From a virus: a stretch of 40,411 nt of DNA. The DNA is taken from positions 1 to 40,411 of the IMG/VR virus record IMGVR_UViG_3300042861_000370. One strand, given 5' to 3'. Each line of letters opens with the position of its first letter. Position 1 is the stretch's first letter. Below, in pieces: positions 6,141 to 40,398 of this stretch. The translations under genes were made by a program, and so were the position numbers. Under the pieces are notes generated by a model. That model worked only from the letters and a program-made list of their open reading frames with translations. It ran no database searches and was not told where the DNA came from.

Positions 6141-9100
6141 ATGCAACGTGCCGTCAATCCTCAAACTGGGGAGGTGTTGTTTCTTGTTGACAACCAATGG
6201 ACTCCTCCAGCACAAACAGCTAAAAATGACGCAGGGGATACGGCATATCTAGTAAATAATCAATGGCAGGTTGTAAAAACCGCCCGTCTTCCAGAGCCCA
6301 TTCTCTCTCCTGAAGAGCAAGTAATGGGCGCTATTGGCAAGCCATCAGAAGGCATTGCATCGCTTCAGAAACCTGGAGTACCCAAGCCCCCGTCAGAGCT
6401 GGCTATGGGCGAAGAGCTTGGCAAAGGTCTTGGTGCCGGCTTTATTGGTCTAAAGTCTACGGCTGAAAACGTTGGTTTGATGAAAGACATCGGTGCCATG
6501 AGTACCGTTCAACAGCGTCAAGACCTCTTCAATAAGATTGAAACAGGCCAAATCACAAGCCCAGATCAACTGCGTGGTTTAGATCAAACCAGTGGTCTAG
6601 GACGCGCTTACCTTGTGTCTGACCCCGCCACTCGCGAAAAATTACGTGAACGTAATGTAGGCGAGATTGGCCGCCGTACAGACTTTGTTAAAACTTCTTT
6701 GTCTGCTATTGACCAGTACCAAAAAGACGCCCAGAAGTACCAAGGACGCACAACAGACTTAACAGATGTTGAAGGCGCTAAAGACTTTGCCAACTGGTTA
6801 GCTTTTAACTTTGGCTCTGGTGCTGTTCAGTTAGCTCCTCTCATGCTTGCCGCCGTTACTACGGGTGGTGCTGGTGTTGCTTTGCTTGGTACAACCATGG
6901 GCACTGGCGAAGCTATAGGCAACCGACTAGAGTTTCTGCAAGAGAAGATCAAGAGTTCGCCAGAGCTATCGCCTAATGAGCGCGCGGCTATGGTCATTGA
7001 CTATGTTAAGAAGACTGGCGATACATCACTGGCCGTTGGTATTGTCAGCGGTGCTTTGGATTCAGTGTTAGGCCCAGCGGCAACCTTGGCCAAGCGCGGT
7101 CTGGGTGAAGTCGTTAAGGGCGAGACTCGTAAGGAAGCACTTAAAGCCGGCGTTAAAGAAATCCCCAAAGGGATGGGTCAAGAGTTTATTACTGGTGGAG
7201 CTCAAGAGGCTACCCAGCTTGGTGGTGCTTTAGCTGAAAAAGAGATTGATGAGTTCTTAACAAAAGAGAATGCTAAGAAGATCCTCAATGCCGCTGCAGC
7301 CGAAGCCGCCGGTTCACTTGCTGGTGGTGCCGCCACTACGGGAGCCCGTGTCTATGGTGCTGATAGGGCTATCAGGGCAGGAGAAAAGCGAGATGCAGAG
7401 ATCCAAGCACTTCAAGGGCAGATGTCTGAGCTTGATGATCTTCTTAAGACTGTATACGAAGGCCCACCTTCTGCCGAACCTACTGCCCCTACACCTACTC
7501 CTGCGCCTGTTGCCCCAGAGGCTGGTATTGCTGGGTTAATGCCACCAGCCGCGCCAGTTGAACAGCCTACCGCCCCTGTGGCCGAAGAGGATCAGCCAGC
7601 TCAAGATTTAGATGCCATGCTTAAAGAAGCACTGGCCGCAACGGGTTCTGATATTTTCACTGAAAATATGCCCGAGGCTCAAACGCCTGTAGCTTCTGAA
7701 GAGCCACCATCTACTGAGCTGATCAAAGAGGTTCTGCCAGAACTAAAGTTGTCAGATAAGTTTGGAACTTTACCTGTTGGTGAATACAGCGTACAAGGTA
7801 CGTTTGAGCAAGATGGCCGTAAGTGGCAAGTTGAGTCTTTAGGTAGATCGGGTGATGGCTTGGTCGCTCAAACCGTTGACAAAGGCGAGCCTGTGCGCAG
7901 AGCCTTCCGATTTGAAGAGCCTGTCAATCCTAAGATTCAAGAGTTGTTGGAGATAAACAATCAGCTGGCGAAGGCTGGTAAGGCCAAAGAAACAACTTAC
8001 GACAAATTAAACGAGATGCTCAAAGAAAAGGCATCTTTTGGTCGTGGTTCTGTAGATGAGTTTATTGACAGAAGCATTACTCATGGCAAAGAAATGCTTG
8101 CCAAACAAAAGCCAGCGGCCAAGCCAGCCGCGCCAGCTGTCAATCCTAAAGTGCAGGATCTGTTAGAGCTTGAGAACCAAAGCAGGGAAAACAGAGGCCA
8201 GAAGCCAATGACTTACGCGCAAGCGGAGAAGATGGTCAATGACGATGTTGAGAATAACCTTGAGTTTGGTGACTTTGATTCTTCTTTAAAGCAGTTAACT
8301 GAAGAAGCTAGAAACAGACTTAAATATGATGCAGAGGCTGGAAAATCCCCAGCTTCTACAGTCAACATTTCCAAGACCGGAGAGATGTTGCGGGGCAAGC
8401 CATTTACGCCTGATGAAGACGATAAGAAGGCTATTGAGATTTACAAGAAGATCAAGGCGGATAACCCTGACGCTGATGTAGATGAACAAATAGCGAACCC
8501 CAATAGATTCCACCCTGTTAAGGAAGAGGCAAACAGCAAAGGCATCAAGATTGGTGATTTGGTTTACAGAAAAGGCGAGTCAGAGCCTGATATAGCTACT
8601 ACTGTTTACAACGATAGGGTTAAATTAACTGATAGGAAGACCGGCAATAGTGGCTTTGAAAACATTGACCTTGTCAGCAAAGAGCCAATCCCATACGACT
8701 ACAACTTTAACTTTGGCTATGGCGAAATTGACGTCAATGTCAATGAGTGGAACAACAACAAGAACCAATGGCAGTTCAGTATGTATGGCCCCGGAGCCAG
8801 CAGTACTGGATTCCGTTCTGAGCTGGGCGTTTATTTTAAAGGTACGCCCGGAACAAAAGAATTTGATAACTTTGTTGAATCCGTTGTCAGCAAAAGCACG
8901 GCAGACCGCCCTCAACAGATAGCTAAAGAAAAGAAAGAAGCCGAAAAGAACATGACTCCTGAACAGCGCAAACAGCGCAGGGAGCAAGAATCAGCGGCTG
9001 ATAAAGAACGTTTAGCAAAAGAGGCTGCTGAGAGCGAAGAAAGAACCAAGGCAAGGAATGAGCTGAAGACTGAGATTCAGGAGTACATGAAGAAAAACAA

Positions 9101-12100
9101 GATTGGCATTTACTCGCCAATGCCTTCGCTAAAGACAGCGATGGAGACAATCGAAAAGCTCAAGAAGGGCAATAAGACTGACCCCCGAGCTGAAGGCTGG
9201 ATGAAGGGTCAAGGCATCATTTGGACGCCTGAAAAGAATCCTCAGTTTACCCGTATGGGTAAGCGGTTTGTGCAAGAGGTGTACAAACTTAACCAGAAGT
9301 TGACTGAAGAGCAACGTGCTTCTGGCACTGAGGACGCTACTGTCCTTAAGGCTGCTGTAGACAAAGCCAACGCTATCACTGAAAAAGAGCGTAAGAAAGC
9401 TATTGCTGACAAACAGAAGGCGATTGAAGCTCAGAACATTGACAAAGCCAAGATAGAGCAAGCTGACCAAGACATTGAAAAAGCCTTGGGTGATTTGGCT
9501 ATGCTGATCACAAAGGGCACACGCCTGAACATGATGCCAGAGGATGAGCAAAAGCTCATGCCTATCCTGACCACATTGATGGATGCGTCATTCCGCAAGG
9601 GTTACTACAAGTTTAAAGAAGCCGCCCGTTATGTGATGGATCTGATCCGTTCACAGTTGGGTCATGACTTTGCTGATGAAATTACTTTGGATCAGCTCCA
9701 AGGTGCATACATTGGTATGGCCGGTAGATACCAAGAACAAGGTGCGAGCTCCAAGAAAGAAGTTATTGCTGTTGAGTCTTTGTCAGAGATTGACGAAGTA
9801 TCCGATGAGCTCGTAGCTGAAGAAACTGAAGAAGCTCCTGAAGGCATGGACATTAACGATCCAGACGCCAAGTTCCAAGTTGCTCAAGAGATTTCCCAGT
9901 CGTTCTTAAACAATGGTGAATATCGCGACATCACAGAAGCTCGCAAAGCTATCTCTGAGATGACTGGCGAACCAATCAAGCCGGGCACTAAAGAGGCCAA
10001 AGCGGCTGACGAAGCTATTGAGGCAGGCGTGGTTATGGCCGCGCGTCAGATCATCGCTAAAGGCCGTAAGGATGAGCTTACAAGTGGACAGATCTACGAC
10101 AAGCTGGTTGATCTGTATGAGCGACAGCCTAACTTGAATGTACGTAGTTCTACTAGCGTTGCAGAGCAAGCCTACTCAACCCCTGCTCCATTGGCTTTTA
10201 TTGCCTCTGAGCTGGCAGGAATCACCAACAAGACTACTGTGTACGAGCCTACAGCTGGTAACGGTATGTTGGTAATTGGTGCTAATCCAAAGAACGTTGT
10301 TGCCAATGAGTTGAACAAAGATCGCTTTGAGATGCTGTCACGCATCCTTGAAGGCGCTGAAGTTGTCAACAAGAACGGCATGACGTTCCAGCCACCAATC
10401 AGCGAAGTCGTTATTGCTAACCCACCGTTTGGTGCAATTGGCGAAGAGGTGTCAGTCAATGGCATTAAGACCAGAGAGATTGACCACGCTATTGTCTATA
10501 ACGCATTAACAAGAATGCAGGCTGATGGCCGTTCTGTTCTGATCGTTGGTGGTATACAGGCTAAGACAGAAGATGGCCGCCGTGAAGGCTATCGTGGCGC
10601 ACAAAAGCGCAACTTCTACTACAACCTTTACAAAGACTACAACGTTGTTGACCACTTCACTGTGGGCGGCAATATGTACAGCAAGCAAGGCACAACATTC
10701 CCCGTTGATGTCATTGTGATTGATGGCAAGGGCCAATCGCAGCGTAATCTTCCAGCAGCAGATCTGCCTGAGTTGATTACATCCTACGAACAATTGAAGG
10801 AGAAACTAAATGATCGCATGGTATCCAGAGGAGATCGTGGCACCGCCAGAGCTGACATCGGTGAGGGTGCCGAAGGGCGAGTTGAGCCAGAAGGAGTGGA
10901 TCGAGGCGCTGTCGGAGAGGGTGAGCCAACTGGCGGAGAAAGAGGAAGACCCGCTGGAGGCGGCGAACGAGGCGTGTCGGAACCTGAATCTGCCCGAGGT
11001 GGACAGCGCGAACCAGCTGGGGGACGCACTGGTGAAGTACAACCTAGACCTACTGACGAATCTGAACGTGATGCAGAAGGAAGACCTGTTTCCGGCACAG
11101 GTAAACGAGGAGAAGCCGGCGGCAAGGCAGGCACTGAAGGACGTAAGCCTAGCGAACTGGGTGGAGTTAGCGTTGTCTCAGGTGAGCGTGTCGGATCTGG
11201 ATTAACAGAGCGCGCTAAGAAAGAAGAGGAAACCACTAATCAGGTTTCTTACACCCCTCATTCACAGGCTACAGCTGTTGGCACTTTGGTGCCTAAAGCC
11301 ATGGCTCAAGCCATCGAGGACTCTATTGCTAAAGTAGAAGCTGAAGTTGGCAACATTGATGAGTTTGTTGCTGAACAGCTTGAGATGGATCCAGAAACCC
11401 TGCGCGAGCAGTTCTCTGCCGAACAGATTGACGCATTGGTCTTGGCCATTCGTAATGCTGAAGAGGGTAAGGGCTTCATCATTGGCGATCAGACTGGAGT
11501 AGGTAAAGGCCGTGTCGTTGCGGCCATGATTAAATACGCGCTTAACACTGGCAAGATCCCAATCTTTGTTACTGAGAAGCCCAACTTGTACTCGGACATG
11601 ATCCGAGACTTGGACGATATTGGCATGACAAATGAGCTTGGTTTAGACACAGCCAAGCCAAGGATCTTTATGACCAACAGTAGTGGGTCAGTGCCATACA
11701 CTTTGATTCGTACTGTCAAAGGCGAGCCAGTTGAAAACAATCTAATGCTCAAGCCGGTCAAGTCTTCTGGGCTTGATGAAGTTATGAAGCAGATGGTTAA
11801 GAATGACAGTTTAGGTAACTACAAGGTTATCTTTACAACATACAGCCAGTTGCAGAGCGTCAAGGGCAAACCCACAGAGCGTCAAAATTTTATCAAGCAC
11901 TTTGGTGCTGGTAACTACATGATCTTTGACGAAAGCCATAACGCTGGTGGAGCTGGTGTTGAGCCGGGTAAAGCTGAGAAAGAAGCAGGCGTCAACATCG
12001 GCCAAGGTCGTTCTGGCTTTGTGCGTAACTTAGTTAAAGCAGCTGACGGCACATTCTTCTCATCTGCCACATACGCCAAGCGTCCTGATGTGATGGACTT

Positions 12101-15100
12101 GTATTCCAGTACTGATATGAAGTTGGCTGTTGATAACATCACCCAGCTGTCGGACGCGATCAAGGCTGGCGGTATTCCGATGCAACAGACTGTGGCTAAT
12201 ATGTTGACTCAAGCGGGTCAATACATTCGCCGTGAGCGTACCTTTGCTGGTGTGTCATACGACACACAAGAAACCAAAGTAGACAAAGATACAGCCGAGA
12301 ATATGGCTACATCTATGCGCGACATCCTTGCCTTCTCGCGTGAGAAGGAAGGTGTTGTTAAGAATTTGCAGAAGTCTTTGGACGCGCAAGGTGCCCGTGC
12401 TGGTGTAGAAGGCGAAAAGACCACAGTCCAAGGCGCAAACTTTGGCTCAATCATGCACAACTTGATTGACCAGATGCTATTGTCATTAAAGGCTCAAGAC
12501 TCTGTGCGCCACGCCATCGAAAGATTGAAGGCCGGTGAGAAGGTTGTGTTGACTGTGTCCAACACCATGGGCCAATTTTTGAAAAACTACGCCGATGACA
12601 TGGACATCAAAGTTGGCGATCCTGTTAACTTGTCATTTGCTGATCTGTACATTCGCTACTTAGACAAACAGCGGATGGTCACAATTACAAAGCCAGGTGG
12701 CGTAAAAGAACAGTACAGGCTGACCGATGAAGATTTGGGGCCAAACTTGGTCAACCGCTACTATGAGATTACTAATTTCATTCGTGGTGCTGGGTTTGGA
12801 TCTGCTCCCATTTCCCCAATTGACTATATGCACAGCGAGCTTCGTAAGGCTGGATATAAGACCGAAGAGATCACAGGCCGTACAGCTACCCTCAACTATG
12901 AGAGTGGCAAACCTTTATTGACTACACGTTCAGCCAACATTAAGCAACGGGTTAATGCTGTTAAATCGTTTAACAATGGTGACTCTGATGTCATCATCTT
13001 AAATCAGGCCGGCTCTACTGGTTTGTCTTTACACGCTAAAGCATCATTCAAAGATAAGCGCAAGCGTCACATGATCATTGTTCAGCCTGAGAAGAACATT
13101 GACACCCATATGCAGATGCTTGGCCGTGTACACCGCACTGGTCAGGTTATTGCGCCTGCGTACTCACAGATGATGGCCGACATCCCTGCTGAGATGCGTC
13201 CTGCAGCCGTCCTGCTTAAGAAGATGGCATCCTTAAACGCTAACACCACAGCTTCCCGTAAGTCTGCCGTGTCAGCCGAGGGTGCTGTTGACTTTATGAA
13301 TGACTACGGCGGCCAAGTTGCACAAGAATTCTTGCGTGATAACCCCGGCATCCATGGAGATTTGGGCGGCAACAAGATTGCTCAAGTTAAAGAAAACACA
13401 GAAGATGCTAGCGAAGAAGACATTCGTAAGCTGACTGGTTACATTCCAATCCTGCCACTTAAGGTGCAAGAAGAGGTTTACAAAGACCTTATTGAACGCT
13501 ACAACGAATTGATCGAGCGTGAAGACAGCATGGGCTCCAACAAACTGGAAGCCAAGGCTCAAGACTTAGATGCTCAGACAGTTAGCTCTGTTGCAATTAC
13601 CGAAGATAAAGGTGAGCCTTCTATCTTTGCCCAGCCTGCATACATGGAAAAGGTTGACGTTAGACGAACAGTCAGACCTTATTCAAAAGACGAAGTTAAA
13701 GAGCAAGTCAAAGAAGCTTTAGATGGTAAAACTCCAGCTGAATATTCTAATGATCTTAAACGTAGCATAGATGAACCATTTAAAAAGTACTATGCTGAAC
13801 GTATTGCTGACGCAGAAGCATCTAGTGCAGATCCAATTAAACTGATAGGGATCAGAGCCAACCTTAATAGTGATCTTGAAAGGGTGCAAACAATTCTTGA
13901 CACCTATCGTTTAGGTACGCCTGTCGCCATTAAAAATGTCAATGGTGTGTTTGTTTATGGTGTTGTAAGCGACATTAGACGCAAAGGTAAGACAAAGAAT
14001 CCTGCGGCTGGTTCGGACTGGAAGATGACTTTGTCTTTGGCTAACGGTGATGCCAAGTCTTTGCCCCTGACGTTCTCTCAGATTGGCAGCTCTTATATGC
14101 TGGATGAGCAACCTGAGATTCAGTACCTTAATCCAGATACTCTTGAGAACGAGCGTATTCCTTTGATGGATTTGTTTGACCGTGGCGCTACTGTTCGCCG
14201 TGAGAAGCGTTGGATGGTGACTGGCAACATCTTGTCTGGTTTTGCAGAAGTCAACAACATGGGTACGATCTTGTCGTACACCAAGAACGATGGTACGACT
14301 GGTCAAGGCATCTTGATGCCCCGCACGTTTGACTTTGAAAAACAGCAAAAGAATGCTCCGGTCAGACTTCGAACTGCTAATGATGTTATGCGCTTCTTTG
14401 GCCAGTTTGGCAGCCGTTCAATGGTTTCAACGCCAGACGCCGTTTTGCGGATTAAGAGCGAAGGCTACGGCGGCCTTAAATTCATTACCTCCAGCTCCAA
14501 GCGTGAAGGCGGTACATTCTTCCTAGATAAAGGTTTAACAGACATTGTTGGCGACTTCTATAAGAGTGGCTCAGTAATGTCTGCCGCTGTCTATAACGAA
14601 GCCAAAAGTAGGCAAGCTCTTGAATACATTCTGAACGAACGTCAAGAGTCTTTAATTGCGGCGACTGACCAAGACAAAGCGCGTGAGATGTTCGCACCCA
14701 AGGACATCCCGTTGTCTAGCATTAAGTTTGACAACGAGAGGTTGAGCATCAATCCGGCCATGAATATTGCCATGGATCGTGAAGCTTTGATCCGTAAGTA
14801 TCAGGCAGTGCGTCAGAAGAGCGCGGCCATCTCTGCTAAGTTTGCCAAAGGTGAGGCAGGACTAGATGAGCAGAAGGCTTTGACGTTCCTTAAGCAGTCT
14901 GCCAATGACCTAAAAGAAGACATTAAAGACACCAAGCCAGCAGGCCGTCTTGCTAAGAACTTCTTTGCCAAGGCTACTGCTGACTGGAACAAAGACCTAA
15001 TCAGCGATGACGTTTATGACGTTATCAGAACTTTGCATGACAAGTATCCAGACGTCTTGGAAGGCCTGCAGTTTTCTATTAAAAAACAGCCAGAAGGTAA

Positions 15101-18100
15101 GGACGTAATTGGAGACTTCTTCCCCTTCCCACGCATTGTGCGTTTGTACAAGGGTACAACTGGTGTAGTTGATCCAGAGGCTATCCGCCATGAGATCGTT
15201 CACAGTCTTGAGCAGATGATGGAAGCCCCAGCCGTGCGAGCTTTGGTTGATGACTGGTCTGATAAGTTGGGTGCGGCCATCAAAGCCGAGAAGTCAGCTG
15301 CCGGCCAGAAGTACTTCCGTAATGTGTTGGAGATGCTTAATAGCCCGAGTTTGGAAACCTACCAAACGGCCATTGATTCCATGCCATCAATGAACTATTA
15401 CCAGTATCTGAACCCCTCAGAATACTGGGCTGTTAACGCTGAGAAGCTGATGGCGCGTAAGCTGGGCACAGGCTGGGACAAGTTTGTGTTAGCGGCCAAG
15501 CGTTTGTTTGAAGGCCTGAAGTTTATGTTTGGTTTTGATAACCAATACATTGTTCAGAGAACCTTTAACAACATCATGAACAGCCGTCAAGAGCGTTTCC
15601 ATACACGTTCTTTAAATAACTACATCACAAAAGAATCTATTCCCTTGGCCAACATGGTCAAGAACTACAAGGGTGGAGCTGGCGCGTTGGCTACATGGGA
15701 ATCAGCAGCAGATACTAGCCTTGCCAAGTTTCAGTATCAAATCGTTGACAAGCAAGTTGATACACGCATGGTGGTTAAGTCCATCACTGAGCAGATCGGT
15801 GACATCCGAGATCAGCATGACCCAGCCTTGCAGGAAACCCTGTATCACAGTGCTAAATCCAGCAAAGTACAAGACTTCTTAAAAGACAATCTGCGTCCAT
15901 TTGTTGAGCAGATGCGCAAGATGGGCGTGGAGTATCGTGACTTTGAGCACTATCTCCATATGCGTCATGGCAAGATCCGCAATGACATTGTGGCCAAGCG
16001 CAACCCAGCTATGCCAGATGGCGGCTCTGGCATCTTCAATCAAGAGATTGATGACTACTTTGCCGGGAAAGATAACTCAAAGCTGACACCAGCTGATGAG
16101 GCCAAGTACAAAGAATTGGCCAAGACAGTCGATAAGTGGGTTCAAGAAACTCAGGACTTGCTAATCGCTTACGGCCTTGAAAAGCCTGAGACTATTGCCG
16201 CATGGCGTGAGAAGCTCCCCTTCTACGTTCCTTTAAAGCGTGATCCAGATGAGCTGGACTACGTGACTCCAGGTTCTGGTTTGGGTCAGGGCTTTGCAAC
16301 CCGTGGTGACTTCTCTAAGACTGCGACTGGATCGTACAAGACTGTTGTTGACGTATTAGCCAACATCGCTCTCCAGCGTGAAGCGGCAATTATCCGTGGC
16401 GAGAAGGCCAAGGTAGGCCGTGCTCTGTATGCGTTGGCCATCCAGAATCCTAACCCTAACTTCTGGAAGCCCGTTAACCCTGACGCTATTCGCAATAAGA
16501 AGAAGCTCAAGGAGGAGATGGCCGGCTTTAACCTGACAGTGGCTGAAGCTGATGCTTTGTTTGCAGAGCCAGCCTCACCACGTATAGATCCAGCTACTGG
16601 TTTGGTTGAGTACAAGGTTAACACTGCGCTGCGGAACTCTCCTAACGTGTTTGCCGTGCGTGTTAATGGCGAAGACCGATTCATCTTCTTTAATCCCGGC
16701 GAGCCCCGTGCCAAGCGCATGGCCGAAGCCTTAAAGAACTTGGATGCCAATCAGCTAGAAGGTTATCTTGGTACTGTGGCTGAAGCGACTCGCTTGATCG
16801 CGGCCATGAACACCCAGTACAACCCTGTGTTTGGTGCATGGAACTTTGTGCGAGATGTCTTTGGTGGCACCATTAACTTGGCAAGCACAGAGATCAAAGA
16901 TAAAAAGATGCAAGTATTGGCTGGCTCTATCCCAGCTCTGCGCGCAATCTTCACTGATCTACGTGGCATGAAAGAGTCTGTCGCTGGCATTGTCAGTGAC
17001 TCAGAGCAAAAGGAATGGATTGCACTGTGGAAACAGTTTAGAGAAATCGGTGGTATCACTGGCTACAGCGAGCAGTTCAGCCGTGCAAAAGACAAAGCAT
17101 CCATTGTCGAGCGTGAGATGGCTCGCTTGGATCGTGGTAATGCCCGTAGGAAAGCTGATGCTGTCCTAGACTGGCTGTCTGACTACAACGATGCAATGGA
17201 AAATGCCGTGCGTCTGTCAGCGTTTAAGGCTGGACTAGACAAAGGCATGACACCTCAACGTGCCGCTTCTTTGGCCAAGAACTTGACTGTTAACTTCAAC
17301 AAGAAGGGTCAAGCCACTGCTAATGCAAATGCCCTGTATGCGTTCTTCAATGCTCGCGTCCAAGGCACAACCCGCATGATGGAAGTGCTGGTTGATAAGA
17401 AAGACGGCAAGTTCACAATGACCGGCGTTGGCAAGAAGATCATTGCCGGCGGTATGTTGTTGGGTACTGTGCAGGCTCTGGCTTTATTGGCGGCAGGCTT
17501 TGATGGCGATGAGCCACCAGACTTCCTCAAAGACAAGAACTTGATCTTGCCTACCTTTGGTATTGGTGGTGAGAAAAAGTATTTGATCGTCCCCATGCCT
17601 TTGGGCTGGAACCTGTTCCCCAACATTGGCCGTGAGTTGACTGAGTATGTCTTGATTAACTCTGGTCAGATGAAGGGCAGACGCAAGATTACCCAGACGA
17701 TTACAAACATTGCAGCTCAAGTGGCTGATATGTTTAACCCGTTGGGCGCTGGCGGTGCGGCCAATCTGCTTACGCCTACGTTGGCAGATCCGATTGTTAA
17801 TGTGCTGGCAACAAACAAAGATACGTTTGGCCGTCCAATCTCACGCGAAAGCCGCGAGACAACACCGACTCCAGGTTGGGAGCGCAGTCGTGACAACGCC
17901 ACTAGCTTGAGTAAAGCTTTGGCTTACGGCATAAATTACCTGACTGGCGGTGGTGAGGATGGTATTGGTTTGGTTAGTCCTACAGCCGACCAGCTGGACT
18001 ACCTTGCCAAAGAGTACGCCGGTGGTGTTGGCCGTGAGATTACCAAGGCCGTTCGCTACGTTGGTAAGAAGATAGAGGGAGAAGAGGAGATCCCATCCTA

Positions 18101-18443
18101 CTCTGTGCCAATCCTTGGCAAGTTGTATGGTGAGCTCGATACTCCTTCGGCTGCAGCTGATAAGTTCTACAAGAACATTAAAGCCATGGCAGAGCATGAG
18201 GGCACTATCAAGCGAATCAAAGAGCGCAAGGGTGATGTCAGCGAGTATCGCAAAGAAAATAAAGAAGCTTCAGCAAGGCTTATAAACCGCGCAAACTATG
18301 TTGAGACTGAGGTTGCCAGATACAACAGAGAGATTCGCGCAATGTATAAGAAGGAAGCTCCTGAGAAGGAAATTAAAGCTAAGAAAGATAAACGTGATGC
18401 CGTGATGAAGGCATACAACGAAGAGGTCAGACGAGCCCAATAA
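6141..18443 (+). CDS. Giant polyvalent protein: N6-MTase-like + SNO/SNF2 helicase + HExxH + LPD38-like (DarB type)
   Basis: This 4100-residue protein is about 30% of the window. Order: two short LVDNQW/LVNNQW repeats (residues 10-45); Gly/Ala-rich hydrophobic stretches (about 215-263 and 384-408); a Pro-rich linker (about 440-500); charged coiled coils (about 925-1100); an N6-adenine methyltransferase-like domain with EPTAGNGML (about 1369) and NPPF (1427-1430); a Gly/Arg/Glu linker (1557-1688) overlapping another gene; a helicase with Walker A GVGKGR (about 1786), DESH (1930-1933) and motif VI GRVHRTGQ (2328-2335); an HEIVH zincin-like motif (3017-3021); and a C-terminal part (about 3549-3837) like large polyvalent protein domain LPD38. 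Proteins of this kind (P1 DarB and relatives) are packaged in virions and protect incoming DNA from restriction. A protective, injected role here is inferred. The start uses a weak AGGA at 6131. The stop overlaps the convergent HNH-type gene by 17 bases. Confidence 0.88.
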   Translation: MQRAVNPQTGEVLFLVDNQWTPPAQTAKNDAGDTAYLVNNQWQVVKTARLPEPILSPEEQVMGAIGKPSEGIASLQKPGVPKPPSELAMGEELGKGLGAGFIGLKSTAENVGLMKDIGAMSTVQQRQDLFNKIETGQITSPDQLRGLDQTSGLGRAYLVSDPATREKLRERNVGEIGRRTDFVKTSLSAIDQYQKDAQKYQGRTTDLTDVEGAKDFANWLAFNFGSGAVQLAPLMLAAVTTGGAGVALLGTTMGTGEAIGNRLEFLQEKIKSSPELSPNERAAMVIDYVKKTGDTSLAVGIVSGALDSVLGPAATLAKRGLGEVVKGETRKEALKAGVKEIPKGMGQEFITGGAQEATQLGGALAEKEIDEFLTKENAKKILNAAAAEAAGSLAGGAATTGARVYGADRAIRAGEKRDAEIQALQGQMSELDDLLKTVYEGPPSAEPTAPTPTPAPVAPEAGIAGLMPPAAPVEQPTAPVAEEDQPAQDLDAMLKEALAATGSDIFTENMPEAQTPVASEEPPSTELIKEVLPELKLSDKFGTLPVGEYSVQGTFEQDGRKWQVESLGRSGDGLVAQTVDKGEPVRRAFRFEEPVNPKIQELLEINNQLAKAGKAKETTYDKLNEMLKEKASFGRGSVDEFIDRSITHGKEMLAKQKPAAKPAAPAVNPKVQDLLELENQSRENRGQKPMTYAQAEKMVNDDVENNLEFGDFDSSLKQLTEEARNRLKYDAEAGKSPASTVNISKTGEMLRGKPFTPDEDDKKAIEIYKKIKADNPDADVDEQIANPNRFHPVKEEANSKGIKIGDLVYRKGESEPDIATTVYNDRVKLTDRKTGNSGFENIDLVSKEPIPYDYNFNFGYGEIDVNVNEWNNNKNQWQFSMYGPGASSTGFRSELGVYFKGTPGTKEFDNFVESVVSKSTADRPQQIAKEKKEAEKNMTPEQRKQRREQESAADKERLAKEAAESEERTKARNELKTEIQEYMKKNKIGIYSPMPSLKTAMETIEKLKKGNKTDPRAEGWMKGQGIIWTPEKNPQFTRMGKRFVQEVYKLNQKLTEEQRASGTEDATVLKAAVDKANAITEKERKKAIADKQKAIEAQNIDKAKIEQADQDIEKALGDLAMLITKGTRLNMMPEDEQKLMPILTTLMDASFRKGYYKFKEAARYVMDLIRSQLGHDFADEITLDQLQGAYIGMAGRYQEQGASSKKEVIAVESLSEIDEVSDELVAEETEEAPEGMDINDPDAKFQVAQEISQSFLNNGEYRDITEARKAISEMTGEPIKPGTKEAKAADEAIEAGVVMAARQIIAKGRKDELTSGQIYDKLVDLYERQPNLNVRSSTSVAEQAYSTPAPLAFIASELAGITNKTTVYEPTAGNGMLVIGANPKNVVANELNKDRFEMLSRILEGAEVVNKNGMTFQPPISEVVIANPPFGAIGEEVSVNGIKTREIDHAIVYNALTRMQADGRSVLIVGGIQAKTEDGRREGYRGAQKRNFYYNLYKDYNVVDHFTVGGNMYSKQGTTFPVDVIVIDGKGQSQRNLPAADLPELITSYEQLKEKLNDRMVSRGDRGTARADIGEGAEGRVEPEGVDRGAVGEGEPTGGERGRPAGGGERGVSEPESARGGQREPAGGRTGEVQPRPTDESERDAEGRPVSGTGKRGEAGGKAGTEGRKPSELGGVSVVSGERVGSGLTERAKKEEETTNQVSYTPHSQATAVGTLVPKAMAQAIEDSIAKVEAEVGNIDEFVAEQLEMDPETLREQFSAEQIDALVLAIRNAEEGKGFIIGDQTGVGKGRVVAAMIKYALNTGKIPIFVTEKPNLYSDMIRDLDDIGMTNELGLDTAKPRIFMTNSSGSVPYTLIRTVKGEPVENNLMLKPVKSSGLDEVMKQMVKNDSLGNYKVIFTTYSQLQSVKGKPTERQNFIKHFGAGNYMIFDESHNAGGAGVEPGKAEKEAGVNIGQGRSGFVRNLVKAADGTFFSSATYAKRPDVMDLYSSTDMKLAVDNITQLSDAIKAGGIPMQQTVANMLTQAGQYIRRERTFAGVSYDTQETKVDKDTAENMATSMRDILAFSREKEGVVKNLQKSLDAQGARAGVEGEKTTVQGANFGSIMHNLIDQMLLSLKAQDSVRHAIERLKAGEKVVLTVSNTMGQFLKNYADDMDIKVGDPVNLSFADLYIRYLDKQRMVTITKPGGVKEQYRLTDEDLGPNLVNRYYEITNFIRGAGFGSAPISPIDYMHSELRKAGYKTEEITGRTATLNYESGKPLLTTRSANIKQRVNAVKSFNNGDSDVIILNQAGSTGLSLHAKASFKDKRKRHMIIVQPEKNIDTHMQMLGRVHRTGQVIAPAYSQMMADIPAEMRPAAVLLKKMASLNANTTASRKSAVSAEGAVDFMNDYGGQVAQEFLRDNPGIHGDLGGNKIAQVKENTEDASEEDIRKLTGYIPILPLKVQEEVYKDLIERYNELIEREDSMGSNKLEAKAQDLDAQTVSSVAITEDKGEPSIFAQPAYMEKVDVRRTVRPYSKDEVKEQVKEALDGKTPAEYSNDLKRSIDEPFKKYYAERIADAEASSADPIKLIGIRANLNSDLERVQTILDTYRLGTPVAIKNVNGVFVYGVVSDIRRKGKTKNPAAGSDWKMTLSLANGDAKSLPLTFSQIGSSYMLDEQPEIQYLNPDTLENERIPLMDLFDRGATVRREKRWMVTGNILSGFAEVNNMGTILSYTKNDGTTGQGILMPRTFDFEKQQKNAPVRLRTANDVMRFFGQFGSRSMVSTPDAVLRIKSEGYGGLKFITSSSKREGGTFFLDKGLTDIVGDFYKSGSVMSAAVYNEAKSRQALEYILNERQESLIAATDQDKAREMFAPKDIPLSSIKFDNERLSINPAMNIAMDREALIRKYQAVRQKSAAISAKFAKGEAGLDEQKALTFLKQSANDLKEDIKDTKPAGRLAKNFFAKATADWNKDLISDDVYDVIRTLHDKYPDVLEGLQFSIKKQPEGKDVIGDFFPFPRIVRLYKGTTGVVDPEAIRHEIVHSLEQMMEAPAVRALVDDWSDKLGAAIKAEKSAAGQKYFRNVLEMLNSPSLETYQTAIDSMPSMNYYQYLNPSEYWAVNAEKLMARKLGTGWDKFVLAAKRLFEGLKFMFGFDNQYIVQRTFNNIMNSRQERFHTRSLNNYITKESIPLANMVKNYKGGAGALATWESAADTSLAKFQYQIVDKQVDTRMVVKSITEQIGDIRDQHDPALQETLYHSAKSSKVQDFLKDNLRPFVEQMRKMGVEYRDFEHYLHMRHGKIRNDIVAKRNPAMPDGGSGIFNQEIDDYFAGKDNSKLTPADEAKYKELAKTVDKWVQETQDLLIAYGLEKPETIAAWREKLPFYVPLKRDPDELDYVTPGSGLGQGFATRGDFSKTATGSYKTVVDVLANIALQREAAIIRGEKAKVGRALYALAIQNPNPNFWKPVNPDAIRNKKKLKEEMAGFNLTVAEADALFAEPASPRIDPATGLVEYKVNTALRNSPNVFAVRVNGEDRFIFFNPGEPRAKRMAEALKNLDANQLEGYLGTVAEATRLIAAMNTQYNPVFGAWNFVRDVFGGTINLASTEIKDKKMQVLAGSIPALRAIFTDLRGMKESVAGIVSDSEQKEWIALWKQFREIGGITGYSEQFSRAKDKASIVEREMARLDRGNARRKADAVLDWLSDYNDAMENAVRLSAFKAGLDKGMTPQRAASLAKNLTVNFNKKGQATANANALYAFFNARVQGTTRMMEVLVDKKDGKFTMTGVGKKIIAGGMLLGTVQALALLAAGFDGDEPPDFLKDKNLILPTFGIGGEKKYLIVPMPLGWNLFPNIGRELTEYVLINSGQMKGRRKITQTITNIAAQVADMFNPLGAGGAANLLTPTLADPIVNVLATNKDTFGRPISRESRETTPTPGWERSRDNATSLSKALAYGINYLTGGGEDGIGLVSPTADQLDYLAKEYAGGVGREITKAVRYVGKKIEGEEEIPSYSVPILGKLYGELDTPSAAADKFYKNIKAMAEHEGTIKRIKERKGDVSEYRKENKEASARLINRANYVETEVARYNREIRAMYKKEAPEKEIKAKKDKRDAVMKAYNEEVRRAQ
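7650..7670. repeat. 21-base palindrome, copy 1 (inside polyvalent gene)
   Basis: The core ATATTTTCACTGAAAATAT (7651-7669) is a near-perfect palindrome. The 21 bases 7650-7670 are the exact reverse complement of 23154-23174. It lies in the coding sequence around residue 504, just after the Pro-rich linker, so the protein tolerates it in a low-constraint segment. A third, slightly longer copy lies at 35255-35276. Confidence 0.8.
10810..11205 (+). CDS. Candidate overlapping gene embedded in the polyvalent gene
   Basis: A 131-residue reading frame lies wholly within the polyvalent gene in another frame. The ATG is preceded by AAGGAG at 10797-10802 with 7 bases spacing, one of the best ribosome binding sites in the window. 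The product has a balanced, foldable composition with amphipathic helices (for example LSQKEWIEALSERVSQL, then DSANQLGDALVKYNLDLL) and ends QVSVSDLD. In the same bases the polyvalent frame encodes only a low-complexity Gly/Arg/Glu linker (residues 1557-1688). This is what is expected if the embedded frame is the constrained one and the large protein merely reads through. I do not recognise the product. Its existence is inferred from the ribosome site and composition. Confidence 0.55.
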   Translation: MIAWYPEEIVAPPELTSVRVPKGELSQKEWIEALSERVSQLAEKEEDPLEAANEACRNLNLPEVDSANQLGDALVKYNLDLLTNLNVMQKEDLFPAQVNEEKPAARQALKDVSLANWVELALSQVSVSDLD

Positions 18444-22610: not shown

Positions 22611-23072
22611 ATGTTAAAGATTGGAATAGACCCCGGACTGTCTGGCGCCATCGTCATCATGGATATGAACTGTCCTGTTGAGTGGCACCGGATGCCCACA
22701 ATGAAGACTGGCTCGGCAAATCGTGTGAACGCGCCAGCTCTGGCCGCAATCATCAAGCCGTATTTGTATTTGGATAAGAAACTCTGGGCGTATGTTGAGC
22801 TGGTCAGTAGTATGCCCGGCCAGGGTGTTGCTTCGATGTTCTCGTTTGGCCACTCAGCTGGCGTAGTGCAAGGTGTGCTCGGTGCTTTTGAAATATCTGT
22901 GACGATGGTGACACCCAGTCAGTGGAAGAGAAGCGCGGGATTAACTGGTCAGGACAAGGATGCTTCGAGGACGTTGGCTATACAGATGTGGCCGTTCTGG
23001 CGTGAGCTGGATAAAAAGGGAGCCGGCCAAGCGTATGCTGATGCAGCTCTAATTGCAGTTCATGGAAATTAA
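22611..23072 (+). CDS. ruvC: RuvC-like Holliday junction resolvase
   Basis: A 153-residue protein with the RuvC/RNase H fold signature: KIGIDPGLSGAI (D7), a strand ending AYVEL (E63), and the C-terminal GQAYADAALIA (D144). The position three residues before D144, usually Asp or His, is Ala141, so one metal ligand may differ. It would resolve branched DNA made by the ERF/nuclease system before packaging. The ATG at 22611 is used because the conserved fold begins there; the open frame extends upstream into the divergent promoter, which is not credible. It is the only gene between the divergent promoter region and the terminator at 23124. Confidence 0.82.
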   Translation: MLKIGIDPGLSGAIVIMDMNCPVEWHRMPTMKTGSANRVNAPALAAIIKPYLYLDKKLWAYVELVSSMPGQGVASMFSFGHSAGVVQGVLGAFEISVTMVTPSQWKRSAGLTGQDKDASRTLAIQMWPFWRELDKKGAGQAYADAALIAVHGN

Positions 23073-23123
23073 TGTAGAATAAATTCCGGCAATGCAGTTG
23101 CCTCCTTTGTTGGGTTTACCTTA

Positions 23124-23153
23124 CCCCCGAACTAATCACTCGGGGGCTTTTTT
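23124..23153 (+). terminator. Rho-independent terminator after ruvC
   Basis: A perfect 7-bp stem CCCCCGA (23124-23130) / TCGGGGG (23140-23146) is followed by C and six T. A small hairpin GGCAA-tgcag-TTGCC (23088-23102) precedes it. It separates ruvC from the non-coding region. Confidence 0.85.
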
Positions 23154-23174
23154 CATATTTTCAGTGAAAATATC
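23154..23174. repeat. 21-base palindrome, copy 2
   Basis: The core ATATTTTCAGTGAAAATAT (23155-23173) directly follows the ruvC terminator and begins the long non-coding region. The 21 bases are identical, inverted, to 7650-7670, and near-identical to 35255-35276, which has one extra central G. Confidence 0.8.
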
Positions 23175-23189
23175 AACACGCATGGGGAT

Positions 23190-23297
23190 TGATGCCAGTC
23201 TTTATGCGCGTTGGTGGTAAACGGGTTAGCGCCGTGCGTTGTTCCTTAGTTCGGTTTTAATGCCAACACTGCTTCATGTGCCCACCAACTTTTTTTT
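23190..23297 (+). ncRNA. Small structured RNA ending in a terminator (module copy 1)
   Basis: The closing stem GTTGGTGG (23210-23217) / CCACCAAC (23282-23289) is perfect over 8 bp and is followed by eight T, so it is terminator-like on the plus strand. Inside it lies the hairpin ACGG-GTTAGCG-CCGT (23221-23235) and the element AACACTGCTTCATGTG (23265-23280). Both elements recur in the same order at 23485-23549, again within a perfect but different closing stem. No credible reading frame is present. The 5' end is not determined. It might be a separate small RNA or the first domain of the RNA that follows. Confidence 0.6.
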
Positions 23298-23306
23298 CGT
23301 AGGGTA

Positions 23307-23335
23307 TTGCACAACGCAAATATCTTTGATATAAA
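23307..23335 (+). promoter_or_regulatory. Promoter of the large non-coding RNA
   Basis: -35 TTGCAC (23307-23312), 17-base spacer, -10 TATAAA (23330-23335). The predicted start is near 23342, just before the long three-tier hairpin and just after the T-rich terminator of module 1. Confidence 0.6.
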
Positions 23336-23341
23336 CGAGCT

Positions 23342-23931
23342 GTTACTGTTGCGAGTGACAAGTCGAGGCCACTTATGGCTATATTCCGCCTTACCTAATG
23401 CTTTCGTGGGAGAGATATTAGGCAAGGTCGCAACCGGAATGTAGCCTTAAGTGGCCTTTTCGTTTTTGAGACTGGGATTGTGTTGCGGGTTAGCGCCGCA
23501 AGCTCCTAAAGTGGACGAAATGTAGTTTTGAAAAACACTGCTTCATGTGGATAGTCCCAGTCTCACCCTCGCACAGTAGCCGTAAGGCTGCGTCAACCAC
23601 GCGGGGCAGAAATCTCCCCGTGACCACAACCAGACCAGACCCCGATGGCGGAAGCAAGGGGAAGACTGTAAAGGCCAAACTCGGTGTGACCCGCACCTCC
23701 TAGTAGAGTAATCGAACGGAATAAACAAGGATGTCGAAAGACACATACCCTAGTACGCTGGGAGTTGATCGTTAAGGATGGTGCAAACTGACCTTATCGG
23801 GATCTCAGGGGAGGGCGGCTTGGCTGGCCGGTAGCTCACTTAACAACTGGGCAAAGCTCCTTGATAATGAGACGCTGATCCTTTAGCCTACCCAGTGGGG
23901 GAGGGAGGGTTGTCGGGTAAGAGGGCTTTTT
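23342..23931 (+). ncRNA. Large structured phage RNA (GOLLD/ROOL-like in character, family unassigned)
   Basis: About 590 bases without a credible protein gene but dense in stems. A three-tier hairpin (23366-23457) stacks AGGCCACTTA/TAAGTGGCCT, GGCTATATTCCG/CGGAATGTAGCC (one G-U) and CCTTACCTAAT/ATTAGGCAAGG (one mismatch). Module copy 2 (23467-23565) is closed by an 11-bp perfect stem. Then follow a GUAA tetraloop hairpin (23576-23591), a GGGG/CCCC hairpin (23598-23622), another with an apical GAAGCA (23640-23661), a GGTG/CACC hairpin (23674-23688 region), a GAAA tetraloop hairpin (23732-23743), and a TAAGG/CCTTA stem (23773-23796). The end is a bulged stem AGCCTACCC/GGGTA..GGCT with five T (23885-23931). 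Large ornate RNAs such as GOLLD and ROOL occur in phages and have this size and style. I cannot assign the family without a covariance search. Confidence 0.65.
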
Positions 23932-23947
23932 GGTGGTAACATAACAG

Positions 23948-23977
23948 TTGACTCATCGTTAATTCATGAGTTATATT
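23948..23977 (+). promoter_or_regulatory. Promoter of the early plus-strand operon with inverted repeat
   Basis: -35 TTGACT (23948-23953), 18-base spacer, -10 TATATT (23972-23977). The inverted repeat ACTCAT (23951-23956) / ATGAGT (23966-23971) fills the spacer, a likely operator. The first gene begins 20 bases after the -10 with a strong AGGAGG. Confidence 0.6.
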
Positions 23978-23996
23978 ATTAACACAGGAGGTTAGT

Positions 23997-24164
23997 ATGG
24001 AAAACGAGACAACAAGACGCTATCCACGCACCATGCACGAAGCGTTTAATTGCGATAGTGAACCCATCAGTGGGCCATATGGTAAGGAGCCAGTCTGGCC
24101 AACGTATGCGATCTTCTTCATTGTGATTGTGGCTGGGATCATTCTGTTCTGGAGCAAAGCATGA
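23997..24164 (+). CDS. Small single-pass membrane protein
   Basis: A 55-residue protein with AGGAGG just before the ATG at 23997. The N-terminal half has RRYPRTMHEAFNCD, a motif that recurs in small phage proteins. The C-terminal half (about residues 37-51, from YAIFFIVIVAGIILF) is one transmembrane helix, followed by a short end. It is the first gene of the early operon and its stop overlaps the next start (ATGA). It might act at the cell envelope. There is no sign that it is a holin beyond size and the single helix. Confidence 0.65.
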   Translation: MENETTRRYPRTMHEAFNCDSEPISGPYGKEPVWPTYAIFFIVIVAGIILFWSKA

Positions 24165-24433
24165 CCCAAGATGCAATCAAGACGTATGAGGCCATCATTG
24201 CCAACATGGCAAAGTTATTAGAAGTTCAACAGAGCCGTGAAAGCGTAGTGATGGACATGGTTGCGGAGGCTATTAAAGTTGAGCGTGAGGCGTGTGCAAA
24301 GATTGCTGAAACGCCTATTGGAGAATATGAGGTGGTTGTGGCTTGCGGGACTGAGCCAACACCGCATCGCATCCCTCAATATGCAAATTGGCAAGATATT
24401 GCAAAAGCCATCCGAGCAAGGGGACAAGCATGA
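24161..24433 (+). CDS. Small early phage protein, unknown function
   Basis: A 90-residue protein, start coupled to the preceding stop. A long N-terminal helix (residues about 5-50) contains EREACAKIAE and the C-terminus has WQDIAKAIRARG. Proteins with this REACAKIAE...IRARG pattern are common in phage early regions and have no known function. Confidence 0.62.
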   Translation: MTQDAIKTYEAIIANMAKLLEVQQSRESVVMDMVAEAIKVEREACAKIAETPIGEYEVVVACGTEPTPHRIPQYANWQDIAKAIRARGQA

Positions 24434-39795: not shown

Positions 39796-39992
39796 TTGAC
39801 AAATATTTAAAACTTCTAGCTTCAAAGATAGATGACAAAGTATCCCAACTCCAAATGTCAATAGCCGATGGCAAGGCTGAAGATTTTGCGGAGTACAAGA
39901 AGATGTGCGGAGAGGTGAAAGGTCTACTCACTGCACGTTTATACATCATAGACCTACAAGAAAGAGTCAATCACGATGACGATGACGAGTGA
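39792..39992 (+). CDS. Small head-module protein, unknown function
   Basis: A 66-residue helical protein with the ATG at 39792 overlapping the portal stop. It contains KLLASKIDDKV and GEVKGLLTARLYIIDLQERV, ending in an acidic run of Asp/Glu. A similar small protein sits between portal and capsid genes in several phages, with unknown role. Confidence 0.65.
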   Translation: MIDKYLKLLASKIDDKVSQLQMSIADGKAEDFAEYKKMCGEVKGLLTARLYIIDLQERVNHDDDDE

Positions 39993-40398
39993 GATTTCTA
40001 ATCTCGACATAACCAAGGCCGTGGATTTATCCAAGATCTTGAACACAAAGCCAGAGGAGAAGGCTAAACAACTTCCCCGCCCATCTGGTTACAGAATTCT
40101 TTGTGCTATCCCTGAGATAGAGAAAGAATACGGAGAGTCCGGACTCGTAAAAGCGGAAGAAACTCTCATGATTGAGGAAACCCTGACTACTGTGTTATTC
40201 GTAGTAGATATGGGCCCAGACTGCTACAAGGACGAAAGCCGATTTCCATCTGGCCCGTACTGCAAGAAGGGTGACTTTATCTTGATTAGACCCAACTCAG
40301 GAACGCGACTGGTCATTCACGGCAAGGAATTCCGTGTGATCAATGACGATTCTGTCGAGGGAGTAGTAGACGATCCACGCGGCATACGCCGTAAATAA
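39976..40398 (+). CDS. GroES-like co-chaperonin (Cpn10)
   Basis: A 140-residue protein. After a leader (about 35 residues), PSGYRILCAIPE (about 36-47), VLFVVDMGP (about 73-81), KKGDFILIRPNSGTRL and GKEFRVINDDSVEGVV match the GroES beta-barrel: first strand, mobile-loop region (about 50-70, ending ETLTT), dome strand and last strand. Phage co-chaperonins such as T4 Gp31 replace GroES so that GroEL can fold the capsid protein; the gene lies in the head module, which fits. The IVL-type tip that binds GroEL is not clear, so binding is inferred. Start may also be the ATG at 39982. Confidence 0.78.
   Translation: MTMTSEISNLDITKAVDLSKILNTKPEEKAKQLPRPSGYRILCAIPEIEKEYGESGLVKAEETLMIEETLTTVLFVVDMGPDCYKDESRFPSGPYCKKGDFILIRPNSGTRLVIHGKEFRVINDDSVEGVVDDPRGIRRK

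Follow-up and report, generated by a model that had tools for sequence, protein, structure and literature searches.

The region at 23176–23926 of the plus strand is confirmed as a dense set of conserved structured RNAs, for which chance folding is excluded. It lies in a tailed phage, a bacterial virus of freshwater type whose 40,411-bp IMG/VR contig (the whole stretch of DNA analysed, referred to as the window) encodes a large terminase, portal, Erf-like annealing protein, exonuclease, resolvase, helicase and primase, and it lies between the resolvase gene, which ends at 23072, and a small gene that starts at 23997. This RNA island is composed of four separable elements, P0, M (present twice), K and X, each backed by compensatory changes in relatives. 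All four are RNA kinds absent from Rfam 15, and none of them was described in the open-licence papers searched, where the loop sequences returned unrelated matches only. The reading we favour, with somewhat better than even confidence, is a phage non-coding RNA island whose K-M-X transcript and separate P0-M RNA act as RNA on a conserved host component.

The three independent alignments of M, K and X displayed more covariation than all 500 shuffles and every slid register, in cells paired, in double-changed cells and in score. Among wobble-type cells read on the plus strand, G-U outnumbers A-C in X (134:25), K (55:16) and M (52:34), which indicates that the structures are RNA made from the plus strand. 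The large structured non-coding RNA region that the preliminary description had proposed for this strand is thus borne out, both by the covariation among collected homologues and by the strand bias, and every feature it had placed was found at its position. Single-sequence folding of the whole region gave z = −4.9 for the plus strand and z = −2.1 for the minus strand, from only 20 dinucleotide shuffles each; this fold was used for the z-score only, and the structures reported here are those with covariation support. A credible protein gene had not been seen in the region, and it holds no open reading frame (ORF) longer than 68 aa, the only ones being of 59–68 aa and all on the opposite strand. 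The single RNA of ~740 nt envisaged earlier is contradicted: the region consists of elements that relatives carry independently of one another, and the promoter at 23307 can make only the part from ~23342 on. The order P0-M-K-M-X was found again in 11 loci. Structure begins upstream of the earlier boundary of 23190, at about 23154–23176.

Module M spans ~100 nt and is present in two plus-strand copies, at 23199–23303 and 23463–23572, which match the covariance model R1 with 63 bits (E 2.6e-17) and 77.6 bits (E 8.3e-22), respectively; the sequence of copy 1 is included in the alignment behind R1, and the E-values of these home-made models, whose members include window sequences, are rough. Within the window R1 finds no convincing copy beyond these two; 30 other phage records each contain one or two strong ones. 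In an alignment of 36 diverse copies, stem P1 is built by 11 pairs, every one with changes on both sides, and encloses P2, with seven pairs around the loop GUUAGCG followed by a free linker of variable length, and P3, which is CAC/GUG around the loop UGCUUCAU (GAC/GUC in L101). Covariation scores 0.405, compared with 0.153 for shuffled alignments and 0.08–0.27 for slid registers. Copy 1 forms P1 from 23206–23216/23283–23293, an imperfect P2 from 23218–23224/23232–23238 with the loop GUUAGCG, and P3 from 23267–23269/23278–23280 with the loop UGCUUCAU. Copy 2, which covariation also supports, forms P1 from 23470–23480/23552–23562, P2 from 23482–23488/23496–23502 and P3 from 23536–23538/23547–23549. 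A contact between its two loops, AGC at 23492–23494 with GCU at 23540–23542, is possible and, being invariant, lies beyond the reach of covariation. A repeat finder had detected two identities of 13 and 16 nt, 264–269 nt apart, CGGGTTAGCGCCG and AACACTGCTTCATGTG; these are the constant parts of one unit, whose enclosing stem differs in each copy. In and around the two loops, 25 bases are nearly fixed, an invariance that arises partly by construction since M sequences were collected by an exact pattern of 21 bases plus a free linker; among relaxed-pattern matches the core also varies little.

By this exact-pattern search, at least 119 IMG/VR contigs, from a variety of phages, carry M. Its neighbours include genes for helicase, terminase, portal, ribonucleotide reductase, SSB and DNA polymerase, usually in the same orientation as M, and it is found in leaders, between genes and in tandem. 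Such widely differing neighbours argue that M travels on its own, and the clean absence of copy 1 in two relatives (L009 and L038) that it is gained and lost as a unit. In 13 of 63 distinct phage contexts, a promoter scoring at least 9/12 ends just before P1 (~2% in shuffles; 0–5 of 63 in nine other windows), so M is often the 5′ end of a predicted transcript, at about +1. Many phage leaders carry M tightly at +1, with a ribosome-binding site ~20 nt later. Predicted terminators near M, in contrast to an immediate one found after M in L204–L207 and L037, show no enrichment downstream, with 22 downstream versus 20 upstream in 26 loci. Among larger neighbours, PADLOC detected no defence family apart from one weak match, and a search of 50,697 cultivated phage records returned no match to the region and only unrelated ~20-nt matches to M.

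Among bacteria M is rare, being limited to a few genomes, mostly Burkholderiales: a species-level genome scan yielded eight contigs, and three of the 301 genomes of the family holding the Curvibacter genome carry it. Cultivated strains with M include Curvibacter sp. CHRR-16 and Variovorax sp. ZS18.2.2. Several of the bacterial loci are prophage-like, with a terminase, phage exonuclease or S24 repressor nearby. One Burkholderiaceae-type genome (G118) has three copies of M, each with a promoter-like box (CATACAGT or CCTACAGT) ahead of it and a GC-rich terminator immediately after it. Beyond the M-terminator unit of L205 and L210, the genes called, with a simple ORF picker as throughout the relatives, lie on the opposite strand and face the unit. 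One 7-kb phage contig with a portal gene and M turns up at 100% identity in three assemblies (L122, L123 and L124), namely MAGs of Aeriscardovia and Clostridia and an isolate of Vreelandella, an identity likely to reflect contamination or mis-binning of one phage.

Directly before copy 1 lies P0, a plus-strand helix of ACACGCAUGGGGAUUG with CAGUCUUUAUGCGCGU at 23176–23211, which can be written as ACACG.CAU.GGGGAUUG / CAGUCCCC.AGC.CGUGU. In 27 distinct relatives, 338 of 351 cells are paired, compared with a mean of 320 and a maximum of 329 in 500 shuffles. P0 is preceded by a small plus-strand hairpin with the loop (A)CAGUG (23154–23175), directly after the terminator of the upstream gene. In relatives both arms of its stem vary (ATATTTT/AAAATAT, ATATTAT/ATAATAT and CTCTA/TAGAG) around a constant CAGTG; alternatively, this hairpin could be an operator dyad. 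The palindrome ATATTTTCANTGAAAATAT occurs here, at 23155–23173, and again at 7651–7669 inside a gene for 4100 aa, with a chance expectation of 0.04. That gene (6141–18443) is a single ORF taking up 30% of the record; its product, a giant polyvalent protein, includes LPD38 and a helicase of Strawberry-notch type (AAA_34, Helicase_C_4).

Copy 1 is followed by the plus-strand sigma-70 promoter that had been noted at 23307–23335, with TTGCAC at 23307–23312, a 17-nt spacer and TATAAA at 23330–23335. The relative L048 is 96.6% identical to the window over 23287–23344, and other relatives also have a promoter-like sequence at this place ahead of K. Element K (23342–23462, plus strand) was defined from alignment A5, with 24 sequences. 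Its 5′ hairpin (23342–23346/23355–23359) presents a loop, 23348–23354, that forms a seven-pair pseudoknot with 23428–23434, and the partner bases sit inside a long stem at 23367–23456. The stacked long stems described previously at 23366–23457 are therefore real, as part of K. The pseudoknot is 99.4% paired in the 24 relatives, a single position showing as many as four pair types, and double changes occur in 132 cells of the alignment, as opposed to 43 after shuffling and no more than 27 in slid registers. At its 3′ end, K finishes in a stem and a U-rich tract resembling a terminator, and in relatives it is recurrently followed directly by M.

Domain X (23634–23926, plus strand) is a multibranched RNA, the single match in the window to covariance model R2, with 263 bits. 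A 23-base pattern located it in 49 contigs, with or without M in front. In an alignment of 27 sequences, X has 61 pairs in 12 helices, which are 94.2% paired; double changes affect 27 of the 61 pairs, in 138 cells versus 37.6 in shuffled alignments and 9–22 in slid registers. The fold includes a hairpin at 23683–23697, a GNAA hairpin at 23698–23720 and a helix, 23726–23731/23858–23863, next to a GAAA hairpin at 23732–23743. This last element (UGUC-GAAA-GACA), previously singled out as a GNRA hairpin, is conserved and covaries as helix 8 of the alignment. The loop ACCCG of the first hairpin (23689–23693) pairs with CGGGU at 23914–23918 in a pseudoknot that spans more than 200 nt; it is nearly invariant, which places it beyond covariation, and conservation is what supports it. 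A second GNRA-type hairpin had been reported at 23576–23591. It is present, with a GUAA loop, in the poorly conserved 5′ lead of X (23573–23633, plus strand, window type), but this lead differs from nearly all relatives, so the hairpin is not a conserved part; one relative, L189, has the same module-to-X spacing. Of the terminator-like ends formerly placed at 23297 and 23931, the first stands, as T8 (23290–23297, plus strand) after the P1 stem of M copy 1. At the second, the T-run at 23927–23931 exists, but its form is not kept in many relatives, which leaves a terminator there unsupported.

The position of M copy 2 upstream of X is taken in L164, L188, L162 and L165 by other structured-looking sequences, in L188 with a stem of GGGACUUGUCUGUG/CACAGGCAGUCCC; these could be further RNA modules belonging to this island. 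In L008, L024, L065, L088, L104 and L058, weak R2 matches of 51–57 nt, resembling only part of X, follow M copy 2, where a different RNA domain may lie. The downstream border of the island is a second plus-strand promoter, TTGACT...TATATT at 23948–23977, which is conserved in alignment A2 and serves the next gene, with the ribosome-binding site GGAGG and an ATG at 23997. Between its −35 and −10 boxes, an inverted repeat (ACTCAT/ATGAGT) looks like a repressor operator. The ORF it precedes (23997–24164, 55 aa) has a hydrophobic, membrane-like C-terminal stretch and a start region conserved in relatives, and a gene for a GroES-like co-chaperonin (39976–40398) stands at the end of the record.

The favoured reading, of RNAs acting on a host component, has three parts. 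An early transcript of ~590 nt would start at ~23342 and carry K, M and X; P0 and M copy 1 would form a separate small RNA ending at T8; and these RNAs would work as RNA, not as message, with a conserved part of the host machinery as their target and the fixed loops of M and the pseudoknotted core of X as the acting parts. Because K has a terminator-like end and the stretch from K to M copy 2 showed no recognisable promoter, transcription of M copy 2 and X may depend on read-through, or K, M and X may be split over separate transcripts. We infer the function of X and K by association only. For M itself, we tentatively suggest a nascent-transcript element that may engage host RNA polymerase at the start of the transcript, as HK022 put does. 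The missing excess of downstream terminators counts against put-like antitermination, which might predict one.

A trans-acting small RNA, or a decoy for a host protein or RNA, whose location is merely a way to get transcribed, is an equally tentative account of M, and we rate the two about the same. The promoter-M-terminator units at three places in one Burkholderiaceae-type genome, the spread of M over leaders, intergenic sites and tandem arrays, and the 25 nearly fixed bases in and around its loops speak for it, as do the convergent genes called downstream of M in L205 and L210, which a free small RNA fits better than a cis element. Against it, the tight +1 placement in many phage leaders, ~20 nt ahead of a ribosome-binding site, would be unneeded, and no complement or copy of the M loops of at least 8 nt was found in the host RNAs covered, the 16S and 23S rRNA checked; mimicry or antisense recognition of these rRNAs by the loops was accordingly rejected.

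It is unlikely that the elements are mainly devices for mRNA ends, with K and M copy 1 acting as terminators and P1 stems guarding the 5′ and 3′ ends of messages from RNases. The stem and U tract of K, the T8 after M copy 1 and the many copies of M at +1 agree with this, but a plain hairpin would suffice for such a role, and it is left unexplained why M has fixed loops, K a seven-pair pseudoknot and X a 61-pair fold. A riboswitch-type leader, in which M would sense a ligand and control the next gene, is rather improbable: the compact P1-P2-P3 fold with its fixed loops does lie at the 5′ end of messages ahead of a terminator or ribosome-binding site, but the terminator stem in L204–L207 is free of overlap with P1, so that no mutually exclusive switch is visible, the genes downstream of M share no common pathway, and stand-alone copies exist. 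Hammerhead ribozymes in phages are known to lie dispersed between genes, and M, with a small fold and fixed loop bases, is similarly dispersed in many phages. That M is a self-cleaving ribozyme processing phage transcripts is nevertheless very improbable, as P1 often starts at +1, M can have just a promoter and a terminator around it, a setting in which cleavage would achieve little, and no Rfam ribozyme matched. Folded single-stranded DNA, as a replication origin or packaging signal, is barely credible for a region that does adjoin recombination genes but keeps G-U wobble on one strand only (134:25 in X) and has promoters before K and many copies of M.

Beyond the favoured reading of RNAs acting on a host component lies a wider and doubtful one, in which interchangeable structured RNA modules of phages with Burkholderiales-type hosts, exchanged as units between unrelated phages, would build a large multi-domain non-coding RNA that seizes a conserved host machine, with M as a widespread RNA-only regulator of host transcription independent of put. 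As M occurs in at least 119 environmental phage contigs, whatever it depends on must be conserved in its hosts. This recurrence suggests that these viruses employ folded RNA tools not yet described.

Known RNAs were compared by scanning the 4227 families of Rfam 15 with the gathering score on the whole window and with E ≤ 10 on 22900–24200; relatives were scanned too. No family matched at its gathering score in the window, the best match in the region (E 0.11) lying below it, and relatives gave none above it. The suggestion that the region might match no known model thus held for the Rfam covariance models, including GOLLD, ROOL and HEARO. The GOLLD and ROOL models had no match at gathering score in the window or up to E 10 in 22900–24200, and those of HEARO/OMEGA RNA, group I and group II introns, RNase P, tmRNA and 6S had none at gathering score. 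Weak matches to Betaproteobacteria_toxic_sRNA, ncS16 and Hrs13 were rejected as far below the gathering scores; the first of these lies in the window, over the plain terminator that ends the upstream gene. ARAGORN found no tRNA gene in the 40,411 bp.

6S RNA and other bacterial RNAs that bind host factors are structured RNAs that bind a host machine. A likeness to them would be one of idea only, and no Rfam match to them was found. HK022 put is ~70–100 nt long, lies just downstream of its promoter, with putL at about +1, consists of two stem-loops and in the known case needs no phage protein (PMC9378689). M likewise is of ~70–100 nt, made of hairpins and predicted at the start of phage transcripts for a subset of its contexts, the 13 of 63 with a good promoter just before P1. 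M differs in that one closed P1 encloses two fixed-loop hairpins, whereas put has two adjacent stem-loops. In put, downstream terminators are read through; M has an immediate terminator in L204–L207 and L037, with no excess overall. Put acts via the zinc-binding domain of the RNA polymerase β′ subunit. Should M indeed target RNA polymerase, it would join put as an RNA-only antiterminator.

GOLLD and ROOL are large phage-encoded RNAs of hundreds of bases, multibranched and with pseudoknots, whose function is unknown; GOLLD is often near tRNA islands, and many of its members exceed 800 nt (PMC12286853). The likeness to them in the preliminary description was one of size and phage context only, and it fails on the Rfam families and on a tRNA gene in the window. 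The island is also phage-encoded, hundreds of bases long and elaborately folded, with multiple branches and pseudoknots. Unlike GOLLD, its predicted transcript is ~590 nt, versus more than 800 nt for many GOLLD members, and the tRNA gene is absent, proximity to tRNAs being frequent in GOLLD but not strict. The homo-oligomeric RNA cage seen by cryo-EM is a feature of GOLLD and ROOL. Unlike both, the island is made of separable units that recur alone elsewhere. We class it as a new and modular form of ‘ornate phage RNA’, a loose kind, its four elements lying outside the listed families; smaller and more modular than GOLLD and ROOL, and partly present in genomes of cultivated strains, it makes function directly testable.
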